Source: Betaproteobacteria bacterium (GTDB lineage Bacteria > Pseudomonadota > Gammaproteobacteria > Burkholderiales > SG8-39). Taken from it: a stretch of 55,723 nucleotides of DNA. The notes under the pieces were generated by a model. It was not told the origin of the DNA. It saw only the letters and a program-made list of their open reading frames with translations, and ran no database searches. Shown in pieces: positions 4,694 to 55,723 of the stretch (position 1 is the stretch's first letter; the number at the start of each line of letters is the position of its first letter). A program made the position numbers and the translations under genes. The stretch spans positions 1 to 55,723 of the forward strand of contig CANJRC010000012.1 of the NCBI GenBank assembly GCA_947476535.1, written 5' to 3'.

Positions 4694-5278
4694 CTACTTC
4701 GACTCCCCGCTTTTCAGCACCGCACTTGTTGAGGCGCCACTCAAGATTATCGCGATTTCCCCTGCCAAGGCCTTGCCTGCGGCGTCGATCCATGCGTCGT
4801 TGCGCGTCCACACCGGGTGCTCAGCGACTACGAAAGCGAACCCGGGCAGCCCTGCCCCTTTGGCCGTCAGGCGTGCGAGCCCGCTGAAAGGCGCAGTCAC
4901 GACGGCCGTCGATGGCAATCCGGCTTCGGAGCAGTGCGTGGCGTCGAGCAAACTGTTCGACGTGCAAGCCCCTCAATCCCCGACACCGCTGACGACCAGA
5001 TGGGCGCGCGCGGCGATTTCCGCGCGCACCTCCTTCGTTATGGGATATGACGGACTCGGTTTCGAATACAGGAAAAAGGAGCCAACGACGCCGTGTGCAA
5101 CCAGGCCGCGCCCCACGGCCTCCAGCAAGTCGCGCGCCCGCGCCTTGGTATTGTCGATGAGGCACAGGACCGGGTTTGCAGGCAACGGTTTCCATGCATG
5201 CACTACCGTCGGCTTTTCAGCGGGTTTGCCACTCGCGCCATGAATCCGCGGAACGGGAAAGATCACTTCGATGCTCAT
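4694..5278 (-). CDS. UGSC-family small subunit, candidate selenoprotein (in-frame UGA at 4973-4975)
   Basis: If UGA is read as selenocysteine this encodes 194 residues with Sec at position 102. The N-terminal half (MSIEVIFPVPRI to LVVSGVGD) is followed by UGA, then GACTSNSLLDATHCSEAGL and STAVVTAPF, all in one frame, ending in TAG at 4694-4696. Sec-Gly-x-Cys right after a GVGD turn is the signature of the UGSC family, named for Sec-Gly-Ser-Cys; its function is not known to me. The start has a GGGGAG ribosome site. A six-pair hairpin follows the UGA. The upstream gene is the large UGSC partner and the downstream genes form an ABC importer. Alternatives are a nonsense mutation or a sequencing error, but three more such genes in this window argue against that. 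Confidence 0.85.
4942..4962 (-). promoter_or_regulatory. Candidate bacterial SECIS stem-loop of the UGSC small-subunit gene
   Basis: Read on the minus strand, CGTCGA and TCGACG form a perfect six-pair stem closing the nine-base loop ACAGTTTGC. The loop starts 16 nt after the in-frame UGA, at the edge of the distance accepted for bacterial SECIS elements. A G lies inside the loop but not in its first two positions, so this is the weakest of the four hairpins. Confidence 0.55.
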
Positions 5279-5311
5279 GTTGTTCTCCCCTCGGTTCTCG
5301 TCTCGTAGAGT

Positions 5312-5386
5312 CCGTTTCAGTATGAGGGGATACATCCCCTCATACCCCCCTACATCGGACGGTTGCAAAATGAGTATTGCAACCGG
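5312..5386 (+). repeat. Intergenic double-palindrome repeat, copy A
   Basis: The element holds two inverted repeats. The first has 12-base arms (GTATGAGGGGAT and ATCCCCTCATAC) around two bases at 5320-5345. The second has nine-base arms (CGGTTGCAA and TTGCAACCG) around eight bases at 5360-5385. A second copy in reverse orientation lies at 13665-13732 with nearly the same sequence and spacing. Copy A sits between the large and small UGSC genes, where a hairpin could stabilise or trim the transcript. It resembles a REP/MITE-like element more than an operator because the other copy is in an unrelated location. Confidence 0.8.
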
Positions 5387-5393
5387 TTCTTCG

Positions 5394-6497
5394 TTAGGCG
5401 AAATCCAGTTCCGAGCGAGCCGCATCTCGTTCGTGACGCGCCCTCCCCGGCACCTGGACCGCGCGGGTCACCGGGTGCTGCGTCAGCGCCCAGCTCCAGC
5501 AGGGAATTACCATCGACCAACCGGCACCAAAGCCGCCGGCCGTCAGTACCAGGATGTTTTCTGGGATCACCGTGGCCATGCGACCGCGCCCATCCGGCTT
5601 GCAATAGTTCGTGCCGGATGCATCGTACCTGATGCCGGCCGCGGCCAACTGTTCGATGCTCACCGCCGATATATCACTCAATGAAGCGCGCACGTCGCGC
5701 GGTTGCAGTCCCCCGTCCACCAGCACGGAGGCGTGCTCCGGCCCCAGCACCACGATGTACCAGGATTTGCTACCCGTGCCACTATGCGCCGGGTCGCGCA
5801 TCGCCGCGCCGACCACTTTCAACATGTCATCCGGGGTCGGCTGCCAACGGTGCATGACCTGGCGCGGCGCGTCGGCCGGCATCACCGACACCGTAGTGGA
5901 TCCCACGGGAAAGCCCAGTTGCTCGCGAATGCTGGGCCAGCCCTTGGGCGGCTCCGATTCGGCAAAATGAAAGCTGTACTTGCCGCCATGGCCGAAGCTC
6001 CCCGCATCCAGCTGCCCTGGAATGGCGTTCAAGGCGCTCATGCAGCCCAGGCGCACGGCGCGACCGATGGTGGCATTTGCGCGATTGCCCGGCCCGAACA
6101 CGCCGCTGCCTGAACGCATGCCGATCTCCTCAGCGTACGGTCCGGATACCACCGCGGCCAGCGCGGCCCCACCGGTGGAAGTTAGTGCGCCATCCAGGTT
6201 GAAGCGTGGCTCAAGAATGGCGTCCCAGGTTGCCAGCACCACCGGGAAATAATGTGGCAGGCAGCCTGCCATCACCGCGCAAGTGGCGGCCTGCCATACG
6301 TGAATGGAGAGATTGCGACCCTCAACGGTGCCAAGGCATTCGTTGCCTGGCCGACCGCCCGCAGTAATCATGTCATCCACTGCTTCTGGCGTGGGAAGCG
6401 TGACCGGCAGGCCATCCGACCACGGTTCATCGAAGAAGGCGCGCGCGGCCTCTACATAGGAACCGAATTTTTCGAGATTTCGAGGCGGAGATGTCAC
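5394..6497 (-). CDS. UGSC-associated large partner protein, function unknown
   Basis: A 367-residue cytoplasmic-looking protein. I recognise it as the kind of protein found fused or adjacent to UGSC domains. Features are a DGLPVTLPTPEAVDDM opening, ATCAVMAGCLPHYFPVV with two cysteines, a glycine/asparagine stretch GVFGPGNRANATIGRAVRL, HGGKYSFHFAESEPPKGW and a C-terminal VLTAGGFGAGW. The start is a GTG at 6497; an in-frame TAG lies just upstream, and no clear ribosome site is seen. The small UGSC gene follows after 115 bases, which contain the double-palindrome repeat. I infer that the two polypeptides form one enzyme, the Sec/Cys motif being supplied by the small subunit. The reaction is not known to me. 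Confidence 0.75.
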   Translation of the reverse strand: MTSPPRNLEKFGSYVEAARAFFDEPWSDGLPVTLPTPEAVDDMITAGGRPGNECLGTVEGRNLSIHVWQAATCAVMAGCLPHYFPVVLATWDAILEPRFNLDGALTSTGGAALAAVVSGPYAEEIGMRSGSGVFGPGNRANATIGRAVRLGCMSALNAIPGQLDAGSFGHGGKYSFHFAESEPPKGWPSIREQLGFPVGSTTVSVMPADAPRQVMHRWQPTPDDMLKVVGAAMRDPAHSGTGSKSWYIVVLGPEHASVLVDGGLQPRDVRASLSDISAVSIEQLAAAGIRYDASGTNYCKPDGRGRMATVIPENILVLTAGGFGAGWSMVIPCWSWALTQHPVTRAVQVPGRARHERDAARSELDFA

Positions 6498-6668
6498 GGT
6501 GTGCGGGTCTGGGACCCCGAACCAGGGCTTTGAAGTCTATAGCAAAAGACCCTGAAAGACCCGCTGTAGGGCGTTTGCGGCATATCTAGGATGTCCGCTC
6601 CCTGCCCTTCGGTTCCGGGAACCTGTGTGCGCATGGTCCCCGGCCAAGTGTCACCTCAGTTTCCTTGC

Positions 6669-7751
6669 TTAGTTAGACTCCTTGATCGTCCTTCCCATGC
6701 TGGCTTGCACGGGGCGCGCGTTCATCGGGTACATCCGCGAAAAGAGATCCAACTGGTCAGCAGTCGCCTGGACTGGTTGTTTCATGACCACCCAGAGCAC
6801 GTCCTCGCTGCAGGGCGGCGTTGTGAGCGAGCCCATGTAGGTGAAATAGCGGCGGCCCTGGGGAAGCATCTGGGAGAGGTCCAGGCTACTAGAGGTAACC
6901 GCCATTTCTTCGCCTTTCTCCAGCGGCAGGTTGTTGAGCACTGCCTGGATGACGGGTTGGCGCGCGCCGACCTCTACCAGCACAGCGACCACGGCCAGCC
7001 GCTCCTGGCTGTCCTTGTGCACCAGGTGGACCACCATTTCGAACTGCTTCCCATCGATCATTTCCTCGGACGGCCGGTGGAAGTGAAACTGGACCAGGCG
7101 GAACACGCGCCCCATCAAACGCATGGAGTTCCAGCCATTGACGCTGGCCTGGATGGTGTGTCCATTGTCGAGAACCTTGAAGCTGCTGGGCCGGTACTCG
7201 AATGTGATGGGTTCAAGTTCAAGCTTCATGCCCTCGCGTATGTCGATCGGCGATTGGCGCTGGCCGCTACCGCACTTGGAAAATTCCGGCGCGAGCTTGG
7301 CCCAGGCATGCGGGCCGGTTTCTCCCTCATAAGACCAGTGCAGGCTGTGCGGTTTGTGCTCTGCGACAGGCGCTGGGCTCTCGATCGCCTTCGCTACTTC
7401 GACCGGTCGCGCGGGCTCGGTTGCTGTCTGTGCGGAAACCGCTGCCGTGAGCAACGCGTTGCGGCGTGGCGCGGTTGCCGGCCTGCTGCGCACGGGCTCG
7501 GACGCCGGGGCAGCCGCCCGCTCTTTGACCGGCGCTTTGTCCAGCGCCAGTTCCTTGGCCTGGGCATGTTCGAACGTGGCAAAGGCCACGGGCGGTTTGG
7601 TGGGTGATGTTGCTGATTTGCTGGCAGTCGTCGCTGACTGACTTGCCGTGGCATGCTCGGACGCCGCCTTATGTTCTTCGGCAGCCGCAGCAACGCACAG
7701 GACAAGCCCCGGGACAAGCAGCCCGAAACGAAGGCGAACCGGGAGCATCAT
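6669..7751 (-). CDS. Alpha-type carbonic anhydrase, exported, with long Ala/Lys-rich linker
   Basis: A 360-residue exported carbonic anhydrase converting CO2 and bicarbonate, presumably in the periplasm. A signal peptide (RLRFGLLVPGLVLCVAAAA) is followed by about 100 residues rich in Ala, Ser, Thr, Lys and Pro with no obvious fold. The alpha-CA domain then begins near HWSYEGETGPHAW. The zinc ligands are visible as the two histidines of QFHFHRPSEE and the one in MVVHLVHKD; QSPIDI and TTPPCSE are also conserved. The start is taken at the ATG at 7751, after a GAGG. The linker makes the protein longer than the usual 220-260 residues. Confidence 0.92.
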   Translation of the reverse strand: MMLPVRLRFGLLVPGLVLCVAAAAEEHKAASEHATASQSATTASKSATSPTKPPVAFATFEHAQAKELALDKAPVKERAAAPASEPVRSRPATAPRRNALLTAAVSAQTATEPARPVEVAKAIESPAPVAEHKPHSLHWSYEGETGPHAWAKLAPEFSKCGSGQRQSPIDIREGMKLELEPITFEYRPSSFKVLDNGHTIQASVNGWNSMRLMGRVFRLVQFHFHRPSEEMIDGKQFEMVVHLVHKDSQERLAVVAVLVEVGARQPVIQAVLNNLPLEKGEEMAVTSSSLDLSQMLPQGRRYFTYMGSLTTPPCSEDVLWVVMKQPVQATADQLDLFSRMYPMNARPVQASMGRTIKESN

Positions 7752-7812
7752 GATGAGGGGCCTCAGGTGATGAGTTGGGGATGGCCTCTCAACGGCAGAA
7801 AACACTGATTCT

Positions 7813-8049
7813 TTAGCGCGGCCGGATTTTTCTCTCGGCGCTATACTTCGGCGAAAATCGCTTCATGAAGTCCGGATCGGCACACAGGGATGGATCGAGG
7901 GCCTTGAGAGCGACATGTCCTCCACTCTCCCCGGCTTCTGCAAGGCTGACCTTCGCTGTCGCACCTTCGGCGGAGGTCAGGCGAACGGGATTAAGATCAG
8001 CTCCGTCCGCGGCGCCCAGCCTGTGAGCAAGCAAAAATAAATACGCCAC
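7813..8049 (-). CDS. Small hypothetical protein, uncertain
   Basis: A 78-codon frame with a GTG start that encodes a short hydrophobic beginning (AYLFLLAHRLGAADG) and an otherwise featureless sequence ending KYSAERKIRPR. I do not recognise it and no ribosome site is clear. It fills the gap between the J-like protein and the carbonic anhydrase in the same direction. It could be a chance frame. Confidence 0.25.
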   Translation of the reverse strand: MAYLFLLAHRLGAADGADLNPVRLTSAEGATAKVSLAEAGESGGHVALKALDPSLCADPDFMKRFSPKYSAERKIRPR

Positions 8050-8083
8050 ACTGGAATGCCCGGCATCGCGCCAGGCATGCTAC

Positions 8084-8821
8084 TTACACCGCCATCTTGC
8101 GCGCCAGATCCCTCTTTCCAAAGCTCGCTTTTTTCAAGCGTAGGACGCTCCAGATCAACAATGACCCTGCAACGCAGAACAGCAGGGACAGCCAGGCAAC
8201 CGAACTGATGTCTGCCCAACTCTCGGGGCGCACCCAATCGATCGATTGATTGAAGCCGAATGACGCGGCCAGCGCGTCGAGTTCGAGCACATTCAGAAAA
8301 TTGAGCTTCGACTTCTCGTGAAGTCTGTCAACGCCGCGCTCTCGCGCAAGAGGAGCTGCAACAGTTGCAGCCTCGCGCCCTTCAGGCTCTCTCGTACCGC
8401 TCTTGTCAGTGCCTATCGCAGGCTTGCCCGGTTTAAAACGATTGTCATAGGCTTGACGCGCGTCGGCGTTGATCAGCGTGTCATGGATCCTTTCTATCTC
8501 GGCGTCGATGTCTTTCCACAACAGTGTCCGCCGCATCGGCTGGTACCGGTACCAGAGAGCCAGACAGGCCTGCTCTATCTCGTCTCGACTTGCGTCGCTG
8601 GAGATCCCCAGGAGTTGGTAATAGCAGTGTTCCCCATGTGCACGCATAGTGTCGAAACCATTGTTTGCGATCACTTTAGCCACTGATGTCATCGGCTGCC
8701 CCAGAAACCAATGCGAAAGAATACAGTAGCACGCACTTGTACATTGTCTTGTAAGGTGATCAAGACAGTTGCCATTCGGAGCGTAATCTACGTAGTCCTT
8801 CGCATGCGCTGTCGCAACCAT
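8084..8821 (-). CDS. J-domain-like membrane-anchored protein lacking HPD
   Basis: A 245-residue protein. Residues about 64-125 resemble a J domain (CYYQLLGISSDASRDEIEQA, then IHDTLINADARQAYDNRF). The invariant His-Pro-Asp of the loop is replaced by a YRYQPMRRT stretch, so stimulation of DnaK is doubtful. The N-terminus is cysteine-rich (CLDHLTRQCTSACYC). Near the C-terminus there is one membrane helix (VAWLSLLFCVAGSLLIWSVL) followed by a basic tail. The ATG at 8821 has a strong GAGGAAG ribosome site and lies inside the end of the MFS gene (34-base overlap), suggesting coupling. It may be a scaffold for a membrane complex; this is unproven. Confidence 0.7.
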   Translation of the reverse strand: MVATAHAKDYVDYAPNGNCLDHLTRQCTSACYCILSHWFLGQPMTSVAKVIANNGFDTMRAHGEHCYYQLLGISSDASRDEIEQACLALWYRYQPMRRTLLWKDIDAEIERIHDTLINADARQAYDNRFKPGKPAIGTDKSGTREPEGREAATVAAPLARERGVDRLHEKSKLNFLNVLELDALAASFGFNQSIDWVRPESWADISSVAWLSLLFCVAGSLLIWSVLRLKKASFGKRDLARKMAV

Positions 8822-9966
8822 TGCTTCCTCACGACATAGGTAACCGCAACCTGCGTTGCCGCGAGCGCCCAGAATATGGGGCTCAATCCCAATGCCGCCC
8901 CAATCGCTCCTGACAATAACGGCACGACTGTCTGCATGCTGTTTCCCATCAGGGTCCGCAAGCCCATCACTTCTCCAATACGGTTTGACGGGGCGATCTC
9001 ATACAGCATTGCCTGGGAAGTCGGAGTCGCCATTCCCAATCCCAATCCCAGGCAGAAGGACAAGACGGCCAGGGCCAGGAAGGTATGAACGAGGGCAAAG
9101 CCCGCAAAGCATAGCCCTGCAATGCAGCCCGAGATGATCAGCGTCTGCCAAGGTGTTAAATAGCGCGACATGGGCGCGACCATCATGCGAGACGTAATCG
9201 ACGCAAGCGCGTAGCAACCCACCACCACGCCGATGCTTGAGGCGCTGAGGCCGATCTCTATGCAATAGAGCGGTATGAGGAAGCTGAACAGGTTCCAGGT
9301 GATGTTCAAGACAAGGGACACGGCATAGATCCGGCGCAATTCCGGATTGCGCAACAAACGCCACACGCTCTTTTCGCCAGACCCCGTCCCGGTGCTTTTT
9401 TCATGCTTTTTCTTCATTGGGAATGGCAAGTGCCCGGAGCCGATCACGACCAGAGGGATCAGCGGCAGCATGGCCACCAGCAAAAACGTCTCAGGGTGGC
9501 CCAGGTGATCGATGGAAAATCCCGTTATCAGCGGCGCAATAAAGCTCGAAATCGAAATGCCGACCGAGGCGATACTGAAGTTCTTGACCCGCTCTGCTGG
9601 CGTGCCGTACTCACCGACGAGTGGCTGGTAGGCGATGAAATACACATTGAACAATGTGCCGACCACGGCACTGACGACATAAAGCGCGGCGATATCGCGC
9701 CATACGAATGCGAGGCCTGCACCGGCCACCATTGACGCCGATGCCACCAGCATGGGCGTGCGCGGCCCCACGCGATCGATCCACCTGCCAGCGCTCACCG
9801 ATGTGATCGCGCTCAGAAGCCCGAAAATCCCCATCAGAATGCCCACGGTTGCGAGCGAGGCATGCAGGTGCACTGCGTACAGGGCCACGCCCAATCGCAC
9901 GCTTGAAAAACACAGGTGATTGATCGCGGTCAGCGCAACGAGGCGAAAGAAAGGGGACACGCGCAT
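8788..9966 (-). CDS. Major facilitator superfamily permease
   Basis: A 392-residue inner-membrane transporter with about twelve hydrophobic helices. It shows the MFS loop motif near GRWIDRVGPRTPMLVASAS between helices 2 and 3 and a basic central loop (PFPMKKKHEKSTGTGSGEKS) separating the two halves. The start is the ATG at 9966; a TTG one codon earlier is less likely. It overlaps the J-like gene downstream. The substrate cannot be told. The set resembles sugar- or drug-efflux type MFS proteins of Proteobacteria. Confidence 0.87.
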   Translation of the reverse strand: MRVSPFFRLVALTAINHLCFSSVRLGVALYAVHLHASLATVGILMGIFGLLSAITSVSAGRWIDRVGPRTPMLVASASMVAGAGLAFVWRDIAALYVVSAVVGTLFNVYFIAYQPLVGEYGTPAERVKNFSIASVGISISSFIAPLITGFSIDHLGHPETFLLVAMLPLIPLVVIGSGHLPFPMKKKHEKSTGTGSGEKSVWRLLRNPELRRIYAVSLVLNITWNLFSFLIPLYCIEIGLSASSIGVVVGCYALASITSRMMVAPMSRYLTPWQTLIISGCIAGLCFAGFALVHTFLALAVLSFCLGLGLGMATPTSQAMLYEIAPSNRIGEVMGLRTLMGNSMQTVVPLLSGAIGAALGLSPIFWALAATQVAVTYVVRKQWLRQRMRRTT

Positions 9967-10012
9967 CAAGTCGACGGATGCATGGGATGCGCTGGCGTTG
10001 GCGCGACAGATG

Positions 10013-10834: not shown

Positions 10835-10886
10835 GGCTAATCAGTGCCGCGGTATCGCATTGGAGTTCTCGTAATCCTGCATCGCA

Positions 10887-13732: not shown

Positions 13733-13740
13733 AAATGGCT

Positions 13741-30350: not shown

Positions 30351-31109
30351 TCACAGGCCCTTCGGGATCGGCAACCCGGCCAGCAACTCGTCCGTCAGGG
30401 GCTCGGCTGGCATGACGCCCATTCCTGCGAGTAAGGCCTCCACTTGCCGGGCATGTTGCGCGCTATGCCACACCGAGCGTTCGAGAAACTCGTGCAGGGT
30501 CTGTTCACCGAAGTACGTTTCGAGCCTGGTCGTGAGCTGCGACTCGGCCCCCCCGCCCCACCAGGCAGACAAGCGCGCCATCGTGCGATTCGCGTAATCC
30601 ACAAACTCCTGCGGCGTCCGGTAGGACCCGGCATCCAGTTTGCGCTCGGAGTGTTCAAGCGTGGCCGGCGTGCCGTCTTGCGCCGATTCGACATACGACT
30701 CGGCGATCCTGAGTATGTGGTGCCCGACAATGCGAACCGTCCGGTCGTTGCCGGGCGTAATCGGCGTATCGAACCCTTCCAACGGAACCTGCGACAGGCT
30801 GCGGCTTGCTGAACGCAGCACCCTCAACCACTTGCCTACCAGCGTCGCCGCTGGCAGCAGCTGGTGCCGCTCTAACTCCAGCCCGACGAATTCAGCGATC
30901 TTCTGCAGGTCCACGGCGACCACCGATTCACCGCCGCGCGCCAGCACGGGCAACACCGCCCGCTTCAGGGCAGCGAGTCGCGATGCGCCTTCTGCGGAAA
31001 GCGCATCGACAAGTTCGAACGCCACTTGGTGTTGCGAAAGGAACTCTTTCGCTCTAAGGCAGGAACTTCAGCCGCCGCGAATGAATAGGGAATAGGGCGT
31101 TGTTGTCAT
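30351..31109 (-). CDS. Candidate selenoprotein: Sec glutaredoxin-like domain fused to DinB-like domain, copy 1 (UGA at 31068-31070)
   Basis: With UGA read as Sec the product has 252 residues, Sec at 14. MTTTPYSLFIRGG is followed by Sec-SSC, then LRAKEFLSQHQVAFELVDA and a cis-Pro turn (VLPVLARGG), a glutaredoxin/thioredoxin-like fold in which U-S-S-C replaces C-x-x-C. From about residue 100 a helical DinB-like domain follows with histidines in IVGHHILRI and VWHSAQHARQVEALL. The frame continues without break to TAG at 30351. A seven-pair hairpin follows the UGA. The gene lies 44 bases behind a Bug receptor gene. DinB proteins include thiol-dependent transferases and isomerases, so a selenol-dependent transferase or a redox-coupled one is conceivable (inference). 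No clear ribosome site precedes the ATG. Confidence 0.85.
31034..31052 (-). promoter_or_regulatory. Candidate bacterial SECIS stem-loop of Sec glutaredoxin-DinB copy 1
   Basis: On the minus strand GCGAAAG and CTTTCGC make a perfect seven-pair stem with loop AGTTC. The loop starts 22 nt after the UGA and has G in its second position, matching the usual bacterial SECIS rule. Confidence 0.75.
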
Positions 31110-31153: not shown

Positions 31154-32134
31154 CTATTGCGGCTGGATTCCGGCCGCCTTGATGATGCGCGTGAGCAGCG
31201 CGACCTCGTCGCCGACCCGCTTCGACGCGGCCTCGAGCGATGCGGACGCAGTCGGCGTCATCCTGGCCTTGAGCAGGCTGTCGCGGATGGACTGCTGTTG
31301 CATGACCGTGGCCACGGCGGAGTTCAGCCGCAGCAGTGCAGATGTCGGCGTACCGGCACGCGCACTCAGCGTAAGTATGGTGCCGCTCAGCATGTCGGGG
31401 AAACCCAGTTGCGCAAACGTCGGCACCTCGGGCAGCGAGCCTACCCGGCTGCCGCCGGTTACTGCAAGGATCCTTGCCTTGCGCTCCAGGAAGATCGGTG
31501 CCGCCGCCTCGACCGTGACGACCAACTGGACTTCGTTGGCGAGCAGGCCTGCGTTGATCTGCGCGGTGCCCTTGTATGGGATCGAGACAATGTCCAGGCC
31601 GTAGCGCTGCTTCACTGCCTCCACCAGCAGCATGCCGATACCGAAGCCCGAGCCGCCGAAATTGAACTTGCCAGGATTCGAGCGCACTGTGCTGACAAAC
31701 TCGTTGAAATTGCTCCAAGGCGCCTGGGGGGAGGATGCCAGCAGCAGCGGCGACTCCGAGACCACCGAGATCGGCGTGAGGTCGCGTAGCGGGTCGGCCT
31801 TGAGGTTCTTCGCGGTCAACGGCAGGATGAATACGCCCGGCGCGGAAATCAGCAGCGCATGCCCGTCAGCCGGCAGGCTGATGGTCAGGAACTCCAGTGC
31901 CACTGCTCCGCTTGCCCCGGGCCTGTTCTCCACGATGACCGGCTGGCCGAGCAGCTTCGCCAGTTCGGGCGCCATCAGCCGTGCCTGGAAGTCGGTGTTC
32001 CCGCCGGCAGCAAAGGTATCGATGATGGTGATCGGGCGGCTCGGAAACTCCTGTCCCGACGCGGCGAACGGATTGAACGCGGCCACTGCGACCAGACAAG
32101 CTCCCAGCCACTGACGGACCTGGCAACTCCCCAT
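31154..32134 (-). CDS. Tripartite tricarboxylate transporter receptor (Bug family), copy 4
   Basis: A 326-residue exported receptor. The signal peptide (WLGACLVAVAAFNPFAAS) ends before FPSRPITIIDTFAAGGNTDF, then VENRPGASGAVALEF, GKFNFGGSGFGIGMLLVEA and a C-terminal LLTRIIKAAGIQPQ. The ATG at 32134 follows AAGGGAGGAACCG; the longer frame from 32377 overlaps the upstream gene and is a shadow. It lies between an amidohydrolase and the Sec glutaredoxin-DinB gene in one probable operon, so its ligand may be handled by those enzymes. Confidence 0.92.
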   Translation of the reverse strand: MGSCQVRQWLGACLVAVAAFNPFAASGQEFPSRPITIIDTFAAGGNTDFQARLMAPELAKLLGQPVIVENRPGASGAVALEFLTISLPADGHALLISAPGVFILPLTAKNLKADPLRDLTPISVVSESPLLLASSPQAPWSNFNEFVSTVRSNPGKFNFGGSGFGIGMLLVEAVKQRYGLDIVSIPYKGTAQINAGLLANEVQLVVTVEAAAPIFLERKARILAVTGGSRVGSLPEVPTFAQLGFPDMLSGTILTLSARAGTPTSALLRLNSAVATVMQQQSIRDSLLKARMTPTASASLEAASKRVGDEVALLTRIIKAAGIQPQ

Positions 32135-37416: not shown

Positions 37417-38430
37417 CTATTTCGCGACAATTCCCGATGACTGGGCGAGCGCGGTGTAGTGCTTCGTTTCCCTGGCAATCAGCGCCTGTATCTCGCTCGG
37501 AGTCGCCCTGAACGGATTGACGGCAATGCGCTTCATGAACTCCTTGGCCGCCGGCGTGTCCAGCCCTTCAGTCAGTTCCTTGTTGAGCCTTGCAACGATG
37601 TCGGCAGGAACTTTCAACGGGCCGTACAGCCCGAACCATGTCGAGGCAAGCATGTCCAGGCCCGATTCCTTGAGCGTCGGCACGTCCGGCAGCTGCGGGT
37701 CCCGGTCCGCCGAGCCGAACGCCAGGGGAATCGCCTTGCCTGAATCGATCATTGCTTTCGCGGTCGCCAGCGCAGTGACAAACATGTGTACATCGCCGCG
37801 CGCAAGTCCGCTCATCGCATCACCGCCGCCGGCATACGGGATTTCAACGATATCCAGATTGGCCAGCCGGACGAAGCCCAGTGTGTCTAGGTGGACAGTG
37901 TTGTTCGGCACGACACCATAGTTGAGTTTCTTGGGGTTGGCGCGAACATGCGCCACGAAATCCTTGATGTTGCGTGCCGGCATCGTGGCCGAAGAAAGCA
38001 CCAGCATCGGCACCTGTCCGATCGAGCCCATCGGTGTAAGACTGGTTGCGAGGTCGGTGGCCTGGCCCTTGATGAACATCCGTGCATACATGGTCGCACC
38101 GCCCAGAACGAGCAGGGTGTGGCCGTCGGGATTGGCCTTGGTGACGTGCTCGGCGCCGATGTACCCGCCGGCGCCCGCGCGATTCTCGACAATTACCGAC
38201 TGATTGAGCCGTGACTGCAGCGTGGATGCCACCAGCCGCCCGACCGCATCCACGGTTCCCGAGGGAGCAAAGGGAACAATCAGCGTTATTGGCCTGGAAG
38301 GATAGGTTTGGGCGGCAGCCGAAGCGGCCGCCGCGAGCAACACGATTCCCAGGCTCGCATTCCCCGCAAAAAAAACGCCCCTCGCCGCATGCCAAAGCCC
38401 CCTACACAACGACTTGAATGCCGATTGCAT
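37417..38430 (-). CDS. Tripartite tricarboxylate transporter receptor (Bug family), copy 5
   Basis: A 337-residue exported receptor. The signal region (NASLGIVLLAAAASAAAQ) is followed by YPSRPITLIVPFAPSGTVDA, VENRAGAGGYIGAEH, PDGHTLLVLGG and KKLNYGVVPNNTVHLDTL. GGGAGGAGAGT precedes the ATG at 38430. It lies 189 bases downstream of the second Sec glutaredoxin-DinB gene on the same strand and converges with the CoA-transferase gene. Confidence 0.92.
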   Translation of the reverse strand: MQSAFKSLCRGLWHAARGVFFAGNASLGIVLLAAAASAAAQTYPSRPITLIVPFAPSGTVDAVGRLVASTLQSRLNQSVIVENRAGAGGYIGAEHVTKANPDGHTLLVLGGATMYARMFIKGQATDLATSLTPMGSIGQVPMLVLSSATMPARNIKDFVAHVRANPKKLNYGVVPNNTVHLDTLGFVRLANLDIVEIPYAGGGDAMSGLARGDVHMFVTALATAKAMIDSGKAIPLAFGSADRDPQLPDVPTLKESGLDMLASTWFGLYGPLKVPADIVARLNKELTEGLDTPAAKEFMKRIAVNPFRATPSEIQALIARETKHYTALAQSSGIVAK

Positions 38431-38619: not shown

Positions 38620-39498
38620 TCAGCCCCACACCACTTCAGGCAGGTTCAGTCCCTGGTAGGCAGCATCGGTCAGGGGCTCGTTTGGCTCGATGTCCATGGC
38701 GCGTAGCACATGCATGAGCTGGCGCGTGTGCTGCGCAAGTCCATACGTCATCCCCTGCAGCACCTCGTGCAGGCTGTTCTTTCCGAACAGGGCATGCACC
38801 TCGCACCCCAGGTCGCGCCCGCCGGTCTCATCCCACCATTGGCGGATCCCGTGGACGATCTGATCGACCTGCCTGGCCATTTCCGGCAGATCGGCATGCG
38901 TATCTGGCTCGCCGAGCGGCGCGAGTATCTCGATACGGTCGTATCCCGCTGCAGCCGGTGCTTTGGCAATGACCTCGAACTTTCTCCCGTGCCCGATGAT
39001 GTGCCGCACCAGCCCGATATTGGTATCGTGCGGGACATAAGGGGTACCGTCCGGGTGTCGGACCAACTCGCCATCTTTCGTTCTGAGTGGCTCACCCTTC
39101 ATGCCCGGGATCTTGTCGTCGTAGCGATCGCGCGGCAACTGCTGCGCGTAGCGGGTGGCTGCAGTCAACAGGAATATCGCACGGTCGACCAATTCAGGTC
39201 CGGGGATCAGCGCCTTCGCGGGCTCGCCCAGTCCAAGCAAGGAGTCAAGCTCACGGTACTTGGTGCTGAACGCGTCCACGTTGATGAAATGGTCGCCCAC
39301 CGAAATCGCGGGCAAGGTCCGCACGTTCCGCCCCTTGAGCTCTTCAAACCCTTCCGGGTTCGACTGCAGGTTGATGGCGTCGAACTCGACGCCGCGTGTC
39401 CTAAGGTAATCCTTTACCCGGACACACTGCGATCAGCCAGGCACCCAGTACACGCGAACGCCTTTATCCGATCCTGACTTGCCTTTGACGGTGTCCAT
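38620..39498 (-). CDS. Candidate selenoprotein: Sec glutaredoxin-like domain fused to DinB-like domain, copy 2 (UGA at 39433-39435)
   Basis: With UGA read as Sec the product has 292 residues, Sec at 22. MDTVKGKSGSDKGVRVYWVPG is followed by Sec-SQC, VRVKDYLRTRGVEFDAINLQ, the cis-Pro turn RTLPAISVGDHFINVD and then a DinB-like helical domain (LVRHIIGHGRKF and GLAQHTRQLMHVL), ending EPLTDAAYQGLNLPEVVWG. This tail matches copy 1 (EPLTDELLAGLPIP). The ATG has a strong AGGGAGG site, so translation of the short 5' part is clearly intended, and only UGA readthrough joins it to the rest. A two-tier hairpin follows. One DinB histidine of copy 1 is glycine here. Function is not known; it is divergent from a flavoprotein gene. 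Confidence 0.88.
39396..39425 (-). promoter_or_regulatory. Candidate bacterial SECIS stem-loop of Sec glutaredoxin-DinB copy 2
   Basis: On the minus strand a lower stem GTGTCC/GGACAC and an upper stem GGTAA/TTACC are joined by a small internal loop and close the tetraloop AGGA. The apical loop starts 19 nt after the UGA and has G in its second position. Eleven pairs in all make this the best of the four hairpins. Confidence 0.8.
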
Positions 39499-47898: not shown

Positions 47899-47940
47899 GG
47901 ATATCCGCCTTCCTTACCTATAGCTGCTTATTATTATCAT

Positions 47941-48706
<766 letters not shown>

Positions 48707-48714
<8 letters not shown>

Positions 48715-49723: not shown

Positions 49724-50661
49724 CGGCCGCGACTCCCGAACAATCCTTCGGGACGCCACAACAGGATCACCGCCATCATCAGGTAAACCGTCACGCCGGA
49801 CAGCTGCGGCAGCAGCTGGAAGCCCGCCACCTCGAGCGTGAGCACCTTGCCGAAGGTGTCCACCAGCCCGATCAGGATGGCCCCAATCATCGCGCCCTGC
49901 ACCGAACCGATGCCGCCGATCACGACCACCACGAAGCAGATGATCAGCACCTGGTTGCCCATGCCCGGGAACACCGACGAGGTCGGCGCCGCCAGCATGC
50001 CGGCGAAGGCGGCCAGCGCCAGCCCTGCGGCAAACACGATGCGATAGATGAGCGTGATGTCGATCCCCAGCGACTGCACCATGTCGCGATTCACGCTTCC
50101 GGCGCGGATGATCATGCCCAGTTTCGTGCGCCGCAGCACCCACCACAGCCCGAGGGCGAGCACCAGGCACACGCCGGACATCGCCAGGCGGTACACGGGG
50201 TAATTCAGGTTGTCGGTGAGGGAGATCGACGCTGCGAGCAACTCGGGCACCTTCACCCCATGCACATCGTCACCCCACAGGATGCTGCGCAGCTCCTCAA
50301 ACACCAGGATCAGGCCGTAGGTGAGCAGCACCTGGTAGAGATGGTCGCGTGCGTACAGCCGCTGGATTACCAGCCATTCGAGCGCCAGGCCGAACAGCAC
50401 TGACAGCACGATGCCCGCCGGAAGCGCCAGCCACAGGCTCCCCAGCCCCTCGGTAAGCGAAAACGCCAGGTAGGCGCCCAGCATGTAGAAGCTGCCGTGG
50501 GCGAGGTTGATGATGCCCATGATGCCGAAAATCAGCGTCAGGCCGCTGGCGATGAGGAACAGCAGCAGCCCGTACTGGACGCCGTTCAGCAGCTGGATGA
50601 GGAAGGTCGGAAAGTCCACGGCAGGCTCAAGGTACGGGAGAAAGGCATCCGGAAAAATCAT
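49720..50661 (-). CDS. livH: Branched-chain amino acid-type ABC transporter permease, LivH-like
   Basis: A 313-residue permease. FPTFLIQLLNGVQYGLLLFL opens the first helix, then LTLIFGIMGIINLAHGSFYM (the family hallmark), RTKLGMIIRAGSVNRDMVQ in the cytoplasmic loop and GGIGSVQGAMIGAILIGLVD. It begins the co-translated livH-livM-livG block. The binding-protein gene lies 88 bases upstream with a strong hairpin between them. Confidence 0.93.
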   Translation of the reverse strand: MIFPDAFLPYLEPAVDFPTFLIQLLNGVQYGLLLFLIASGLTLIFGIMGIINLAHGSFYMLGAYLAFSLTEGLGSLWLALPAGIVLSVLFGLALEWLVIQRLYARDHLYQVLLTYGLILVFEELRSILWGDDVHGVKVPELLAASISLTDNLNYPVYRLAMSGVCLVLALGLWWVLRRTKLGMIIRAGSVNRDMVQSLGIDITLIYRIVFAAGLALAAFAGMLAAPTSSVFPGMGNQVLIICFVVVVIGGIGSVQGAMIGAILIGLVDTFGKVLTLEVAGFQLLPQLSGVTVYLMMAVILLWRPEGLFGSRGR

Positions 50662-50672
50662 CCGCCAAAAAC

Positions 50673-50702
50673 AAAGCCGGCGGTGATCGCACCGCCGGCT
50701 TT
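50673..50702 (-). terminator. Intrinsic terminator/attenuator between livK and livH
   Basis: AAAGCCGGCGGT and ACCGCCGGCTTT form a perfect 12-pair GC-rich stem around six bases. On the minus strand the second arm ends in TTTGTTTTTGG, a U-rich run. It lies after the binding-protein gene and before the permeases, a common device to make more receptor than membrane components. Confidence 0.85.
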
Positions 50703-50749
50703 GGATTATCTCAGACCCGGCCGCCCCAAACCGGCGGCGCCCTTTCTTC

Positions 50750-51970
50750 CTATGCAGGCATCTTGCACGTGCCCGACGGCGGGTAGTCCAGGGCCTTCAT
50801 GGCCACGCCGGTGACGCGGTTTTCCTGGCCGACCACCTTGCGCAGGTACATATCCTGGATCGGGTTCTGCGATTTGGACATCGTCACCTTGCCGCGCGGG
50901 CTGTCGATGGTAGCGGCGCGCATGGCGGCGATGATCTCCTTCTTTTTCGAGATGTCGCCCTTCACCGCCTTCATGCCCGCCGCGAACAAGAGGCCCGCGT
51001 CATAACCCTGTACCGCGTACACGTCGGGCTGCAGCTTGAAGGCCTTGGCGTAGGCCAGGCGGAAAGCGCGGTTCTTCGGCGTGTCGATGCCGTCGCCGTA
51101 ATGCAGCGTGGTCTCGATGCCCTCTGCTGCGTCGCCCACGGCTTCCAGCACCCCTTCGGTCAGGAAGCCCGTGCCAAACAGGGGAATGCGACCCTTGAGC
51201 CCTGCCGCCTTCCAGTCGGTGAGGAACTTCGCTGCGCCGCCGCCGGCGAAGAACACGAAGACGGCATCCGGCTTGAGCGAGGCGATCTCGGTCAAGAGCG
51301 ACTGGAACTCCACGTTCGGGAACGGCAGCCACAGTTCCTTGACGATCTTGCCGCCGCCCTTGAGGAAGGAGTCCTTGAAGCCCGCGACGGATTCCTCCCC
51401 CGCACCGTAGCGCCAGGCCAGCGTCACCACGTTCTTCAGGCCGCGATCGGCCACCACCTTGCCCATCGGGTAGGCCGGCTGGCCATTGGCGAACGAGCTG
51501 CGGAAGATGTTGGGCGCGCACAGTTGCCCGGTGGCAGCTTCGACGCCGGCGTTCGGGATGATGTGCAGCACGCCCGACTCGCGCACGATCTTGACGATGC
51601 CCATCTGCACGCCCGAGTGCACCGTGCCCACCAGCAGGTCCACCTTGTCGCGCGTCACCAGCTGGTTGGCGCGGTCGGCACCCTTGGGCGGATCGGACTC
51701 GTCGTCCAGCGTGACGTACTCGACCTCGCGGCCGGCCAGGGTCTTGCCCTGCTCCGAGATCGCCAGCTTGAAGCCGTTGGCGATGGCCACGCCCAATTGG
51801 GCGAAGGTCCCCGTATAGGGAAGCATCAGGCCGACCTTGACCTTGGCGGATTGCGCCAAAGACAGGTTCGTCAGGCCGCCCCCGGCCGCCAGCAAGCCTG
51901 CCGCACCGGCCGCCTTGATCAGTTCGCGGCGCTTGGCGCCCTTCTTGTCGTTTTGCATGTCGTTCGGCAT
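50750..51970 (-). CDS. Branched-chain amino acid-type ABC transporter binding protein, LivK-like
   Basis: A 406-residue periplasmic receptor of the Leu/Ile/Val family. The leader has a twin-arginine-like start (KKGAKRRELIKAAGAAG) and a hydrophobic stretch ending near NLSLAQS. The mature protein opens KVKVGLMLPYTGTFAQLG and has NGFKLAISEQGKTLAGREVE and FFAGGGAAKFLTDWKAAG. AAGGGGAACTCC precedes the ATG. In catabolic clusters such receptors often bind aromatic acids, not amino acids; the GMC gene at the end of the operon supports a non-amino-acid substrate (inference). Confidence 0.92.
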   Translation of the reverse strand: MPNDMQNDKKGAKRRELIKAAGAAGLLAAGGGLTNLSLAQSAKVKVGLMLPYTGTFAQLGVAIANGFKLAISEQGKTLAGREVEYVTLDDESDPPKGADRANQLVTRDKVDLLVGTVHSGVQMGIVKIVRESGVLHIIPNAGVEAATGQLCAPNIFRSSFANGQPAYPMGKVVADRGLKNVVTLAWRYGAGEESVAGFKDSFLKGGGKIVKELWLPFPNVEFQSLLTEIASLKPDAVFVFFAGGGAAKFLTDWKAAGLKGRIPLFGTGFLTEGVLEAVGDAAEGIETTLHYGDGIDTPKNRAFRLAYAKAFKLQPDVYAVQGYDAGLLFAAGMKAVKGDISKKKEIIAAMRAATIDSPRGKVTMSKSQNPIQDMYLRKVVGQENRVTGVAMKALDYPPSGTCKMPA

Positions 51971-52112
51971 GGAGTTCCCCTTTTGGAATCAGAGGCCGAA
52001 GTATACCGGCGCAGGCAACCTTGTGGGGTCGAGTCCTCTTGCGCAAGGTTCGCTGGCGGCTGTCCCGTGACCTCCTTATACTCGGGTGGGGACTTTGGTA
52101 AGGAGCTACCGC

Positions 52113-53147
52113 ATGGCCATTTCGGGCATTTCACGCGCGCTACACATCGGCGCGCTTACCGCAATATTCACACTGTGCGCGGGTCAGTCCCTAGCACAGG
52201 CCGATCTGGAAGCGCTCGTCAAGGCGGCAAAGGCCGAGGGCCAGGTCCAGCTCTACTCCTCGCCCACCGAAAACGTGCCCAAGCGCGTAGGCGCCGCATT
52301 CACGGCCAAATACGGCATCACGTTCAACTATGTCCGTTTGTCGAGCGCGGTGCTGCTGCAACGCCATGCCGCGGAAATGGAGGCCGGCAGCGCAGGCGCG
52401 GACATCCTGTGGGCCTCTGGAGGCCTGGGTCCCTACACCGAGGGCGCGCTCAAGCGCGGCTGGATCGAGCCCGTGTCGCAGGCGGGACTCCCCGTGGTGA
52501 AGTCGGGTGAATTCCCGCGCACCCAGATGCGCGCCAATACCGCGGTGATCCAGGTCGTGCCGTTCATCATTGCCTACAACACTGACCGCCTGAAAGGGGC
52601 CGACATCCCGAAGGAAATCCGCGACATCCTCGCGCCACGGTTCAAGGGGCAGATCCTGCTGCCAGACCCCCGCTCTTCGGATGTCTACGTCGCCTTCTGG
52701 GGCATGGTGCTGGACAAGTTCGGAGAAGGGTTCTTCGCGCAACTGCGCGCCCTGGAGCCGCGCCACTACGCGAGCGGTTCGCCAGCCGTGCAGGCACTGG
52801 CGGCGGGCGAAGGCCTGCTCGAGTTGCCGACCATCACTGCGGCGATGCTGGCCACCAAGGGCACGCGCGGGCCCATCGACCAGATCATCCCCTCGCTCAC
52901 CACGGGGCTCGAGCACGAGGTAGTGCTCACCGCGCGCGCGCGCTCGAAGTTTCCGAATGCGGCGCGCCTGCTCGCCAACTACGTCATGTCCCCGGAAGGT
53001 AACAAGGTGTTCAACGACGATCCCGGGGGCACCACGATCTACGACGCCGGCGGACTGCCGAGCCAATACGTGCCGCCGCGCGAGGGCACGGGCGCGCAGA
53101 GCGCGACCAACCGGCGCGAGCTGCTCACCAAGCTCCTGGGGTTCTAG
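52113..53147 (+). CDS. Periplasmic binding protein, iron/thiamine (SBP family 1-like) type, copy 3
   Basis: A 344-residue exported receptor with a signal peptide (ALHIGALTAIFTLCAGQSLA), then ADLEALVKAAKAEGQVQLYS, VRLSSAVLLQRHAAEMEAG and LAPRFKGQILLPDPRSSD. It is a paralogue of the receptor at 16123-17184. AAGGAGCTACCGC precedes the ATG at 52113; a GTG nine codons earlier is not needed. Only three bases separate it from the esterase gene, so the two are co-translated. No ABC permease is adjacent. Confidence 0.9.
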   Translation: MAISGISRALHIGALTAIFTLCAGQSLAQADLEALVKAAKAEGQVQLYSSPTENVPKRVGAAFTAKYGITFNYVRLSSAVLLQRHAAEMEAGSAGADILWASGGLGPYTEGALKRGWIEPVSQAGLPVVKSGEFPRTQMRANTAVIQVVPFIIAYNTDRLKGADIPKEIRDILAPRFKGQILLPDPRSSDVYVAFWGMVLDKFGEGFFAQLRALEPRHYASGSPAVQALAAGEGLLELPTITAAMLATKGTRGPIDQIIPSLTTGLEHEVVLTARARSKFPNAARLLANYVMSPEGNKVFNDDPGGTTIYDAGGLPSQYVPPREGTGAQSATNRRELLTKLLGF

Positions 53148-53150
53148 GCC

Positions 53151-54092
53151 ATGCCGCTCGATCCCAAGGTCAAGGCAATGCTGGATGTCCGCGCGGCCCT
53201 GCCCTCCGTCGAGAAGCAGACGGTGGCCGAAGCGCGAGCCACGACCATTGCGCGCGTCGCGGCCGTCACGGCGACGGCACTGCCGGTGGCCTCCGTCACC
53301 GACCGGAGCATCCCCGGGCCCGGCGGCTCGCCGATGGCCGTGCGCATCTACACGCCCCTTGCGTCAGGGGGCACGGGTCCGCATCCGCTCATGGTGTTCT
53401 TCCACGGCAGCGGCTTCGTCATCTGCAACCTCGACACGCACGACGCCATGTGCCGCAACCTGTGCTCGGCGGCTGGCATCGTGGTCGTATCAGTCGATTA
53501 CCGCCTCGCGCCGGAACACAAGTTCCCCGCTGCGAGCGACGACTGCTTCGCCGCCACGCAATGGGCGGTCGCCCACGCGGCAGAACTCGGCGCCGATCCG
53601 GCGCGCGTGGTCATTGCCGGCGACAGCGCCGGCGGCAACCTCGCTGCGGTGACGGCGCTGCGCGCGAGGGAGAGCGGCGGCCCCGCCCTGCGCGGCCAGT
53701 TGCTGCTCTACCCGGTCACCGACTATCACACGCCGGGAACGCCTTCCTACCGCGACAATGCCGAGGGCTACGGCCTCACGCGCGAGGCCATGAAATGGTT
53801 CTGGGGCCACTATCTGGCCAGGGAAAGCGACGCGGACAACCCCTACGCATCGCCGCTGAAGGCCGCGGATTTCCGCGGGCTGCCGGCAGCGCTCGTGATC
53901 ACCGCCGAATACGATGTGCTGCGGGACGAGGGCGAGCGTTATGCCGAGCGACTGCGCGAGGCCGGCGTCCCGGTACAGATGACGCGCTACGACGGCCACC
54001 ATCACGGCTTTTTCAACTGCGTGGGCACGCTGCCGCGCGCCGACGACGCGCTGGCCGAATGCGCGGGTTGGCTCAAGGCGGTGCTGCGATGA
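53151..54092 (+). CDS. Alpha/beta hydrolase, hormone-sensitive-lipase (HSL) family esterase
   Basis: A 313-residue cytoplasmic esterase. The oxyanion-hole motif reads FFHGSGFVI (HGSG in place of HGGG) and the nucleophile serine is in VIAGDSAGGNLAAV. The acid is in AEYDVLRDEG and the catalytic His in GHHHGFFN. It hydrolyses short or medium acyl esters. Its start lies three bases after the receptor gene and the Bug receptor gene follows after 45 bases, so uptake and hydrolysis of one ester or its product may be linked. Confidence 0.93.
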   Translation: MPLDPKVKAMLDVRAALPSVEKQTVAEARATTIARVAAVTATALPVASVTDRSIPGPGGSPMAVRIYTPLASGGTGPHPLMVFFHGSGFVICNLDTHDAMCRNLCSAAGIVVVSVDYRLAPEHKFPAASDDCFAATQWAVAHAAELGADPARVVIAGDSAGGNLAAVTALRARESGGPALRGQLLLYPVTDYHTPGTPSYRDNAEGYGLTREAMKWFWGHYLARESDADNPYASPLKAADFRGLPAALVITAEYDVLRDEGERYAERLREAGVPVQMTRYDGHHHGFFNCVGTLPRADDALAECAGWLKAVLR

Positions 54093-54137
54093 TCCAATGC
54101 TTGATCACAATTCCATGATTTATTAGGAGCCAACCTG

Positions 54138-55097
54138 ATGCAAACCCTGAAATTGATCGTAATTGTCGCCCTGTCCGTGGTGGCAGCGGGCGCCCAAGCC
54201 CAGTCCTACCCCTCGCGCCCGGTGCGCGTCATCATCCCCTACGGGCCGGGCACCGGTGTCGATGTCGTGGCGCGCATGGTCACCGAAGCCATTTCGAAGA
54301 GCGTTGGCCAGCCCTTCGTCGCCGAGCAGCGCGTGGGTGCCGCCGGCACCATCGCCGCGGGCACGGTGGCCAATGCGCCCGCCGATGGCTACACCCTGCT
54401 CTTCGACTCCTCGGCACACACCTCGGTTCCGGCGCTGATGCAGAACCTGCCCTTCGATACGGCGCGCGATTTCGTCGGCGTGACCACCCTGATCGAGAAC
54501 CCGCTGGTGCTGGTGACGGCGCAGTCGCGCGGCTACAAGACGGTGGCGGACCTCGTTGCCGCCGGCAAGGCCAAGCCCGGGTCTATCAACTACGCCTCGG
54601 GCGGCCTGGGTACATCCACCCATATCAGCGCCGAGAAGTTCCGCATGGGCGCGGGCTTCGAAGCCGTGCACATTCCCTTCAAGAGCACCACCGAGGCGCT
54701 CACCGAAATCATGGGCGGGCGCATGGACTTCACCTACACCGCGCTCACCAGCGCCCTGTCGGGCATCCGCGACGGGCGCCTCGTCGCCCTGGCCATGTCC
54801 TCGCGCCGCTCGCCGGTGCTGCCCAATGTGCCCACCATCACCGAGGCCGGCGTCTCCAATGCCACCTACAGCAGCTGGGTGGGCATGATGGTGGCCTCGA
54901 AGACCCCGCGCGAGATCGTCAATCGCCTCTACCAGGAAACGCTCAAGGCCATGGCCACGGCCGATGTGCAGGAGCGCCTCGCCAAGATCGGCGCCGAGCC
55001 CGTCACCATGCCGCCGGATGATTTCGAAGCCCTGCGCCGGCGCGAGCTGGTGGAGAACGTGCAGCTCATGAAGACCATCGGCATCAAGGCGCAGTGA
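54138..55097 (+). CDS. Tripartite tricarboxylate transporter receptor (Bug family), copy 7
   Basis: A 319-residue exported receptor. The leader LKLIVIVALSVVAAGAQAQ is followed by YPSRPVRVIIPYGPGTGVDV, VAEQRVGAAGTIAAG, PADGYTLLFDSSAHTS, GSINYASGGLGTSTHISAE and a C-terminal LVENVQLMKTIGIKAQ. The ATG follows TTAGGAGCC. It lies between the esterase and the second UGSC gene; a strong hairpin separates it from the latter. Confidence 0.92.
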   Translation: MQTLKLIVIVALSVVAAGAQAQSYPSRPVRVIIPYGPGTGVDVVARMVTEAISKSVGQPFVAEQRVGAAGTIAAGTVANAPADGYTLLFDSSAHTSVPALMQNLPFDTARDFVGVTTLIENPLVLVTAQSRGYKTVADLVAAGKAKPGSINYASGGLGTSTHISAEKFRMGAGFEAVHIPFKSTTEALTEIMGGRMDFTYTALTSALSGIRDGRLVALAMSSRRSPVLPNVPTITEAGVSNATYSSWVGMMVASKTPREIVNRLYQETLKAMATADVQERLAKIGAEPVTMPPDDFEALRRRELVENVQLMKTIGIKAQ

Positions 55098-55176
55098 TCA
55101 ATGGGCGGGGAAGCGCTGACTCAGTCCGATAGGATGCCCAAGTCATTACAAGCTTCCCTCTGAAGTCGGGGGATTT

Positions 55177-55197
55177 ACAAGGGGGTAGCCCCCTTGT
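55177..55197 (+). terminator. Hairpin between Bug copy 7 and the UGSC gene, possible terminator
   Basis: ACAAGGGGG and CCCCCTTGT make a perfect nine-pair stem with loop TAG, followed five bases on by a run of five T. It could end transcription after the Bug gene, or protect the end of a processed message. The T run is not immediate, so termination may be partial. Confidence 0.55.
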
Positions 55198-55232
55198 TCC
55201 AAGTTTTTGCAGCAACCAACCGGGAGAATGTG

Positions 55233-55723
55233 ATGGACACCAAGCAATCCGCCAGCGACGGCCACTACGAGGTGCTTTGGCCGCGCAGTCCGCGCCAGAC
55301 CAAAAAGAAGACCCTGGCCCGGCGCCTCGACACCCTGAAGGGAAAAACCATCGCGCAGTTCTGGGACTTCGTGTTCTCCGGAGACAAGGTCCACGAGGCG
55401 CTGGAATTCTCGCTGAAGGAGCGCTTTCCCGGCGTGCGCTTCGTGAGCTGGAAGGAATTCGGCAACACCCATGGCCAGGACGAGCGCAAGATCCTCGAGG
55501 ACCTGCCCGCGCGGCTGAAGGCGCTGGGGGTGGATGCCGCCATCTCCGGCATGGGCGCTTGAGGCAGCTGCACGCCCGCCGTGTTGCGGGTCAGCGCAGT
55601 GTGCGAGGAAGCCGGCATTCCGGCGGCGACCCTCGTGAGTGAGGGATTCATCCGGCAAGCCGCCATGACATCGGTGGGCCTTGGCCTGCCCGGCATGCCG
55701 GTGGCGCTGGTGCCCGGGCACCC
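55233..55723 (+). CDS. UGSC-family protein, candidate selenoprotein (in-frame UGA at 55560-55562), partial at window end
   Basis: The gene starts at ATG 55233 behind GGGAGAATGTG and is still open at the end of the window. Residues 1-109 run from MDTKQSASDGHYEVLWP through TLARRLDTLKGKTIAQFWDF to VDAAISGMGA. Then UGA at codon 110 and Gly-Ser-Cys give the canonical Sec-Gly-Ser-Cys motif, followed in frame by TPAVLRVSAVCEEAGIPAAT and GLGLPGMPVALVPGHP. The latter parallels the small subunit at 4694-5278 (SEAGLPS, GAGLPGFAFVVAEHP). A hairpin with its loop 17 nt after the UGA supports Sec insertion. The large UGSC partner is not seen upstream and may follow beyond the window. Confidence 0.88.
55574..55591 (+). 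promoter_or_regulatory. Candidate bacterial SECIS stem-loop of the second UGSC gene
   Basis: GCCCGC and GCGGGT pair over six positions (one G-U) around the loop CGTGTT. The loop starts 17 nt after the UGA and has G in its second position. Confidence 0.7.

Follow-up and report, generated by a model that had tools for sequence, protein, structure and literature searches.

UGSC-family selenoprotein genes, their partner domain and adjacent solute-binding-protein genes in a betaproteobacterial genome

Why do four genes with in-frame UGA codons lie within 55,723 bases of bacterial DNA, each beside the gene of a periplasmic solute-binding protein? The window analyzed here is the entire contig C12 (CANJRC010000012.1, positions 1 to 55,723) of a draft betaproteobacterial genome (GCA_947476535.1; 4.12 Mb in 204 contigs, 87.4% complete). 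A sequence-only reading had taken the four UGAs as the selenocysteine (Sec) codons of four selenoprotein genes, had regarded such genes as rare in most bacterial genomes, and had proposed a selenium-dependent substrate-processing programme tied to uptake. We find that the four genes represent two families, not four: UGSC (PF24696) and a glutaredoxin-DinB type, with two genes each, and that selenoprotein genes are not rare in this genome, which holds at least 22. At 22 per 4.12 Mb, four or more in 55.7 kb would have a Poisson probability of 2.6e-4, a figure that is no test, as the window was chosen by the reader. The UGSC domain is joined, by fusion or adjacency, to a second domain termed Unknown_1, and we are highly confident of this module and its link to receptor genes. 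Encoded beside solute-binding-protein genes, the module is likely to be a selenium-dependent enzyme that acts on the compound captured by the receptor. The family itself is known; its arrangement and scale are new, and its function is what we infer.

UGSC genes, their partner domain and their receptor neighbors

The two UGSC genes of the window are gene 1 (4694..5278, reverse strand; short form, Sec motif UGACT; PF24696 119.6 bits) and gene 4 (55233..55723, forward strand; motif UGSCT; 89.4 bits), the latter truncated by the end of the contig. Each has one in-frame TGA (4973..4975, motif UGAC, and 55560..55562, motif UGSC), and both exceed the PF24696 gathering score of 25 bits and carry the U/C-G-S/A-C motif; their scores of 95.1 and 43.7 bits (the second from the cut gene) fall below the 125-bit cut-off of the UGSC equivalog NF041046. 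Gene 1 is accompanied on the same strand by a stand-alone Unknown_1 gene of 367 residues (5394..6497, assigned by local clustering and alignment) and by the gene of an SBP_bac_5 solute-binding protein (3039..4577; PF00496 309 bits), and gene 4 adjoins a TctC/Bug receptor gene (54138..55097, forward strand; PF03401 206.9 bits at 54267-55082). A eukaryotic-type (alpha) carbonic anhydrase gene also lies near gene 1 (6669-7589).

The glutaredoxin-DinB genes, both on the reverse strand, are gene 2 (30351..31109; motif USSC, UGA at 31068..31070) and gene 3 (38620..39498; motif USQC, UGA at 39433..39435, its only in-frame TGA), which adjoin TctC/Bug genes of the same orientation at 31154..32086 (PF03401 164 bits) and 37417..38253 (174 bits), respectively. 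Both reach the gathering score of glutaredoxin (PF00462, 22.9 bits) with 23.0 and 49.0 bits; DinB_2 (PF12867, gathering score 24.8 bits) is matched by gene 2 at 29.9 bits and has no hit in gene 3, which nevertheless aligns with gene 2 over its full length at 25% identity. They share a glutaredoxin-type UxxC motif with the UXX-star/Grx-like selenoproteins but appear fused to a DinB-like domain and score far below the UXX-star cut-off (NF041212; 17.9 and 27.6 against 66 bits). All four UGAs thus stand where the sequence-only reading had placed them, at redox Cys sites, with protein homology extending on both sides of every UGA and a codirectional receptor gene beside each gene.

Throughout the genome, 22 UGSC matches exceed the cut-off: 18 have exactly one TGA, at the motif, three have neither Sec nor Cys there, and one is a 3' fragment at a contig end. 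Three UGSC-Unknown_1 fusions with neither residue at the motif (L064 6905-8542, L065 2691-4319, L066 1493-3121) lie in TctC-rich loci, two of them directly adjoining MmgE/PrpD-type genes, and are possibly non-redox relatives. The final 150 bases of the window (55574-55723) are identical to the end of contig C79 (L058), both inside near-identical UGSC genes, so that two near-identical copies break at one place; the two ends were not joined, and contig C116 begins with the 3' part of a UGSC gene like those cut there. Another near-identical UGSC fusion occurs on two contigs (L054 9561-18920, L062 2904-9731) that also have in common an FMN oxidoreductase gene, a cyclase-TPR gene and a pair of small genes, as if a segment had recently been duplicated.

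UGSC was present in 42 of 98 genomes of the family and in none of 14 control genomes. Within the genus the counts are at least 31 (G035; 31 of 47 candidates scored), at least 25 (G031; 31 of 34 candidates scored), 22 (this genome), 14, 8, 7 and 1. Two records labelled as whole chromosomes (L151 and L159) have eight each. The largest set was found in a groundwater Chloroflexi metagenome-assembled genome (MAG) of about 5 Mb (G102; locus L105, record JACPQD01), with at least 115 matches over the cut-off (examples, L263-L282), a lower bound from scoring 115 of 208 candidates. Among the 65 of these that were listed, 63 have one and two have two in-frame TGAs, and in 48 of the 49 copies examined in detail the TGA falls at the motif, the remaining copy having no motif. 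No pair among the 48 is more than 90% identical (highest 80%), which shows that they do not stem from mixed strains as duplicates. A single 359-kb contig carries 11 copies and a single 350-kb contig nine, and four further copies were met in control stretches of this genome. According to a 2026 review, the largest selenoprotein gene set predicted in a bacterium has 63 members and itself comes from a MAG, and large selenoproteomes belong mainly to anaerobes (PMC13188914); the Chloroflexi UGSC set would exceed that record. In water metagenomes, UGSC has ranked with the commoner families of selenoproteins since 2008 (PMC2398784).

The partner domain, Unknown_1, comprises about 330-430 residues and was defined by local clustering; a search of Pfam at E 0.001 gave no match, and one of NCBIfam at E 0.1 gave none that belongs to the domain itself. 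In this genome, all six short TGA-containing UGSC genes have an adjacent codirectional Unknown_1 gene, and of the 12 long ones ten are fused to it in frame and two are cut by contig ends, making UGSC and Unknown_1 fused or adjacent in all 16 uncut TGA copies. The same pairing was seen in 58 of 58 UGSC genes of four sister genomes (G031, G035, G034 and G032, which have 77 matches between them; this set excludes G030, G033 and one listed G032 copy) and in 45 of the 49 copies examined in the Chloroflexi genome, with no Unknown_1 in view for the other four. A 292-residue Unknown_1 homologue also occurs on contig C4 (L060 181-1059) with no UGSC match nearby, the sole match on that contig being about 7 kb off.

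Relatives were sought in one genome of each of 84,980 species with Unknown_1 alone, a query on which the Sec codon has no influence, and at least 586 were found. The best 80 loci, several of which share one genome (four belong to the G102 record set), come from Betaproteobacteria, Chloroflexi, Rokubacteria/Methylomirabilota, Binatota, Nitrospinota and others. UGSC is fused to, or within 600 bases of, 90 of the 99 Unknown_1 hits in these loci, and the codon at the Sec position of the 90 paired units is TGA in 87, TGC in two and TGT in one (one of 93 UGSC hits in this tally is gapped at the Sec column). The name Unknown_1 is taken from a UGSC fusion described in the Global Ocean Sampling paper (PMC2398784); its identity with the domain studied here is presumed. 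The UGSC of that paper is the domain of PF24696/NF041046 with the same Sec motif, and its Sec forms also outnumber Cys forms (255 vs 21). It differs in that a thioredoxin-like fold was suggested there, whereas the predicted model here suggests a Rossmann-like domain, and in that match counts from 22 up to at least 115 in single genomes, the pairing even of unfused genes and the receptor linkage are not reported in the available excerpts of that paper. Nor was a report of receptor linkage or of such UGSC expansions found in titles and excerpts of the open-licence selenoprotein literature on UGSC, receptors, Rokubacteria, Methylomirabilota and Chloroflexi/SAR202.

Receptor genes are enriched next to these modules. 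Of the 22 selenoprotein genes of this genome, seven have a TctC gene no more than 300 bases away, where genes placed at random on their own contigs give a mean of 0.84 and a maximum of 5 in 5000 trials; for a distance of 1.5 kb the count is nine. Gene 1 and the selenoprotein genes on contigs C17 and C179 adjoin other receptor types, giving 12 of 22 with a receptor. In the sister genomes, 34 of the 58 UGSC units have a TctC gene at most 300 bases away, compared to 2.9% of random positions (from 220 kb of G031/G035 sequence, 200 kb of it G035). Six of the sister-genome regions had been picked for multiple UGSC copies and were tallied separately from 40 regions that had not; the fractions are 12 of 17 and 22 of 41, respectively (p=2e-23 for the latter, binomial test), and receptor and UGSC genes alternate in several regions. 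No TctC was found in the UGSC regions examined in the Chloroflexi genome. There, SBP_bac_5 accounts for 20 of 48 near genes and lies within 300 bases of 21 of 49 UGSC units (2.0% expected), in 20 cases in the same orientation, and gene 1 of the window likewise adjoins SBP_bac_5. The receptor link is frequent, not universal. Of the programme proposed from the sequence, the tie to uptake is consequently supported by enrichment here, in sister genomes and in Chloroflexi, though adjacency does not extend to every copy; the substrate-processing role is not supported as it had been stated. The SaoB/SaoX/SaoP set described in the excerpted review text (PMC13188914) also links selenium to transporter components; there Sec lies in the transporter subunits themselves, whereas here it lies in the adjacent enzyme, and the listed TctC matches of this genome have no in-frame TGA.

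Selenocysteine decoding at the UGA codons

The genome encodes SelB (424 bits), SelD (238 bits) and SelA (358 bits; its gene is truncated where a contig ends), all over their cut-offs; SelD is a fusion of the Ndh-SelD type, with a pyridine-nucleotide oxidoreductase domain (L019 4610-6877). A search of this assembly for selC, the gene of tRNA-Sec, gave no hit over the cut-off, and eight sub-threshold hits are tRNA genes of other types according to ARAGORN, which found tRNA-Sec with anticodon TCA in four genomes of the same genus. In the sister genome G030, tRNA-Sec follows selB and selA in a stretch to which the selA-selB contig here is 74% identical over its whole length. Because the G030 tRNA-Sec lies about 0.9 kb beyond the point matching the end of our selA contig, selC has most likely merely been lost from the assembly. 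Among the 98 genomes of the family, 33 have both UGSC and SelB, nine UGSC only, ten SelB only and 46 neither, a significant association (odds ratio 16.9, p=2e-9).

At a constant distance after each of the 18 UGSC Sec codons there is a hairpin that resembles a selenocysteine insertion sequence (SECIS) and belongs to either of two types. The type-1 hairpin, present in ten copies, shows compensatory change in five of seven pairs, the other two being invariant, and none of 500 shuffles matched the observed covariation. Over 22 Sec sites (18 UGSC and four glutaredoxin-DinB) the mean hairpin score is 18.6, compared to 12.2 in 1121 same-frame windows (p=7e-12), and a similar difference was found for the UGSC copies of the Chloroflexi genome (18.3 vs 11.3, p=2e-23). 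Within the window, the stem-loops that had been predicted after each UGA were found at all four sites: at 4943..4961 for gene 1 (reverse strand; covarying stem, alignment columns 15-33), at 31034..31052 for gene 2 (reverse strand), at 39390..39431 for gene 3 (reverse strand) and at 55574..55591 for gene 4 (forward strand; second hairpin type). That of gene 3 has the lowest simple score of the 22 sites (13), with a full stem of -23.3 kcal/mol.

Cysteine homologues provide a further comparison. The genome holds four glutaredoxin-DinB Sec sites, and the genes of three adjoin TctC. In 20 homologues of this type, from 20 genomes of the same family, the Sec codon is TGC or TGT, and these Cys forms lack the hairpin (score 10.5, n = 20, vs 17.2, n = 11; p=3e-6; two of 33 matches, L259 and L262, each with one TGA, failed the motif pattern and were excluded). 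SelB is present in 11 of 13 genomes with the TGA form and in nine of 24 with the form that has no in-frame stop (p=0.014). The sole match to selenoprotein, DinB and glutaredoxin together in excerpts of the open-licence literature concerns mercury stress in Escherichia coli. For UGSC, Cys replaces Sec in only the three of 90 paired units given above; among its best 120 protein homologues, 58 show Cys (as which a stored Sec may also read) and 62 start at or after the Sec position, and the printed Cys-type homologues read CGTST in 17 of 25. Taken together, the use of selenocysteine by these predicted selenoproteins is well supported, because sel genes are present, the UGSC hairpin covaries and the glutaredoxin-DinB UGA aligns with Cys. 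Of the outcomes that the sequence-only reading had named as refuting it, neither a genome devoid of all sel genes nor homologues that stop at the UGA was seen.

Proposed function and competing explanations

How might the module work? In the mechanism that we propose, the receptor would deliver an organic acid or similar small molecule and Unknown_1 would hold it as substrate. A selenolate, placed at a helix start in the predicted Rossmann-like model of the UGSC domain, would then attack a carbon that bears either a leaving group or a reducible bond, much as the Grd/Prd reductases do. Most copies have a second Cys, which would resolve the selenium intermediate; the others may depend on a thiol from outside, and the nearby glutaredoxin-DinB selenoproteins are candidates for that role. 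If copies differ in substrate, their expansion would constitute a repertoire.

The likeness to Grd/Prd is the more tentative part. Across the Sec region, nine of the 22 UGSC members match GrdB (best E 2.5e-5), seven GrdF and six PrdB, suggesting that UGSC is perhaps distantly related to these reductases, of which the glycine/sarcosine/betaine and D-proline enzymes reductively cleave amino-acid-like substrates (PMC13188914). The resemblance to Grd selenoprotein B and PrdB is thus a weak profile similarity over the Sec region, and the UGSC system differs in having Unknown_1 as partner, no matched pyruvoyl partner and scores below the family cut-offs. We consider Grd-like chemistry a possibility that leans toward doubtful. 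We would put slightly more weight, short of an even chance, on a broader proposal: that these receptor-coupled selenoenzymes form a new class, remotely akin to Grd/Prd but outside the known hosts of those reductases, and multiplied into dozens of substrate-specific modules across several phyla. The Chloroflexi genome would then hold the largest selenoproteome known, mostly of one family, and selenium would be the catalyst in an entire repertoire for degrading organic matter.

Whether the reaction is a redox reaction bears on the strongest alternative, in which UGSC-Unknown_1 would be a non-redox lyase, isomerase or hydrolase that uses Sec as covalent nucleophile. The second Cys is dispensable (four copies in the named loci read UGSS, with Sec kept), and the first motif position stays Sec or Cys even where the second Cys is missing, a pattern that favors a nucleophile over a simple dithiol and that counts for our preferred reading as well. 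The analogy behind the alternative is with hydratase-like and cyclic-amidase-like folds: Foldseek matched Unknown_1 weakly to fumarase of class I (E 4e-4) and to hydrolases of cyclic amides (E 1e-3). We regard this alternative as unlikely, though the most serious of those considered.

Less probable still is that UGSC proteins are general redox or detoxification selenoproteins, found near receptors only through the abundance of receptor genes in shared catabolic islands. TctC genes do number at least 150 in this 4.1-Mb genome (150 of 169 candidates scored), the neighbors of UGSC include CoA-transferases, amidohydrolases, short-chain dehydrogenases/reductases and GMC oxidoreductases, and the glutaredoxin-DinB genes too adjoin TctC in three of four cases. 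However, abundance would be carried into the density-preserving control, which gives 2.9% against 34 of 58 in the sister genomes, and the link recurs with another receptor family in Chloroflexi, with the same-strand excess described above. That the UGAs are true stops, the genes being broken or UGSC and the downstream part made separately, is almost certainly wrong: homologues starting at or after the Sec position are as gene callers would produce them, and selC was not found in the assembly, but UGA recurs at one position in 87 of 90 paired units across phyla, the hairpins covary, 20 glutaredoxin-DinB homologues have Cys there, and selA, selB and selD are present.

Several observations weigh against the reading that we prefer, of a receptor-linked selenium-dependent enzyme. 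Regarding linkage, 13 of the 22 selenoprotein genes here have no scored TctC within 1.5 kb, and receptors are only slightly in excess when all 80 named loci are taken together, with TctC accounting for nine and SBP_bac_5 for five of 132 near genes, compared to two and at most two, respectively, of 132 far genes (132 of 146 genes were used in each class, the omitted ones being mostly long, and SBP_bac_5 is absent from the 25 far families shown, hence the upper limit); the neighboring catabolic genes are varied and name no substrate. Regarding Sec use, selC has no hit over the cut-off in this 87%-complete assembly, a SelB call is lacking in nine genomes with UGSC, and UGSC in ten with SelB (several of them incomplete, G059 and G087 being 96 and 99% complete), and three UGSC copies here carry neither U nor C in the motif. 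Regarding function, the predicted fold of Unknown_1 has no clear relative and the Grd/Prd matches are far under curated cut-offs (first member: TIGR01917 18.6 vs 602 bits, TIGR01918 12.1 vs 65 bits). A domain scan of the 22 UGSC members at E 0.1 found PF24696 in all and three other families in one member each, with no pyruvoyl partner or Gly_reductase-type domain. Finally, the genomes used are nearly all draft MAGs.

With a partner domain, receptor neighbors in two phyla and 22 to at least 115 copies per genome, the function of UGSC is now testable, and the ligand of an adjacent receptor, once found, would name the substrate of the enzyme. Gene callers that stop at UGA hide these enzymes, as in the 62 of 120 best stored homologues that start at or after Sec. 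Large selenoproteomes may also be seen differently, as one family multiplied in the manner of a transporter or oxygenase family.

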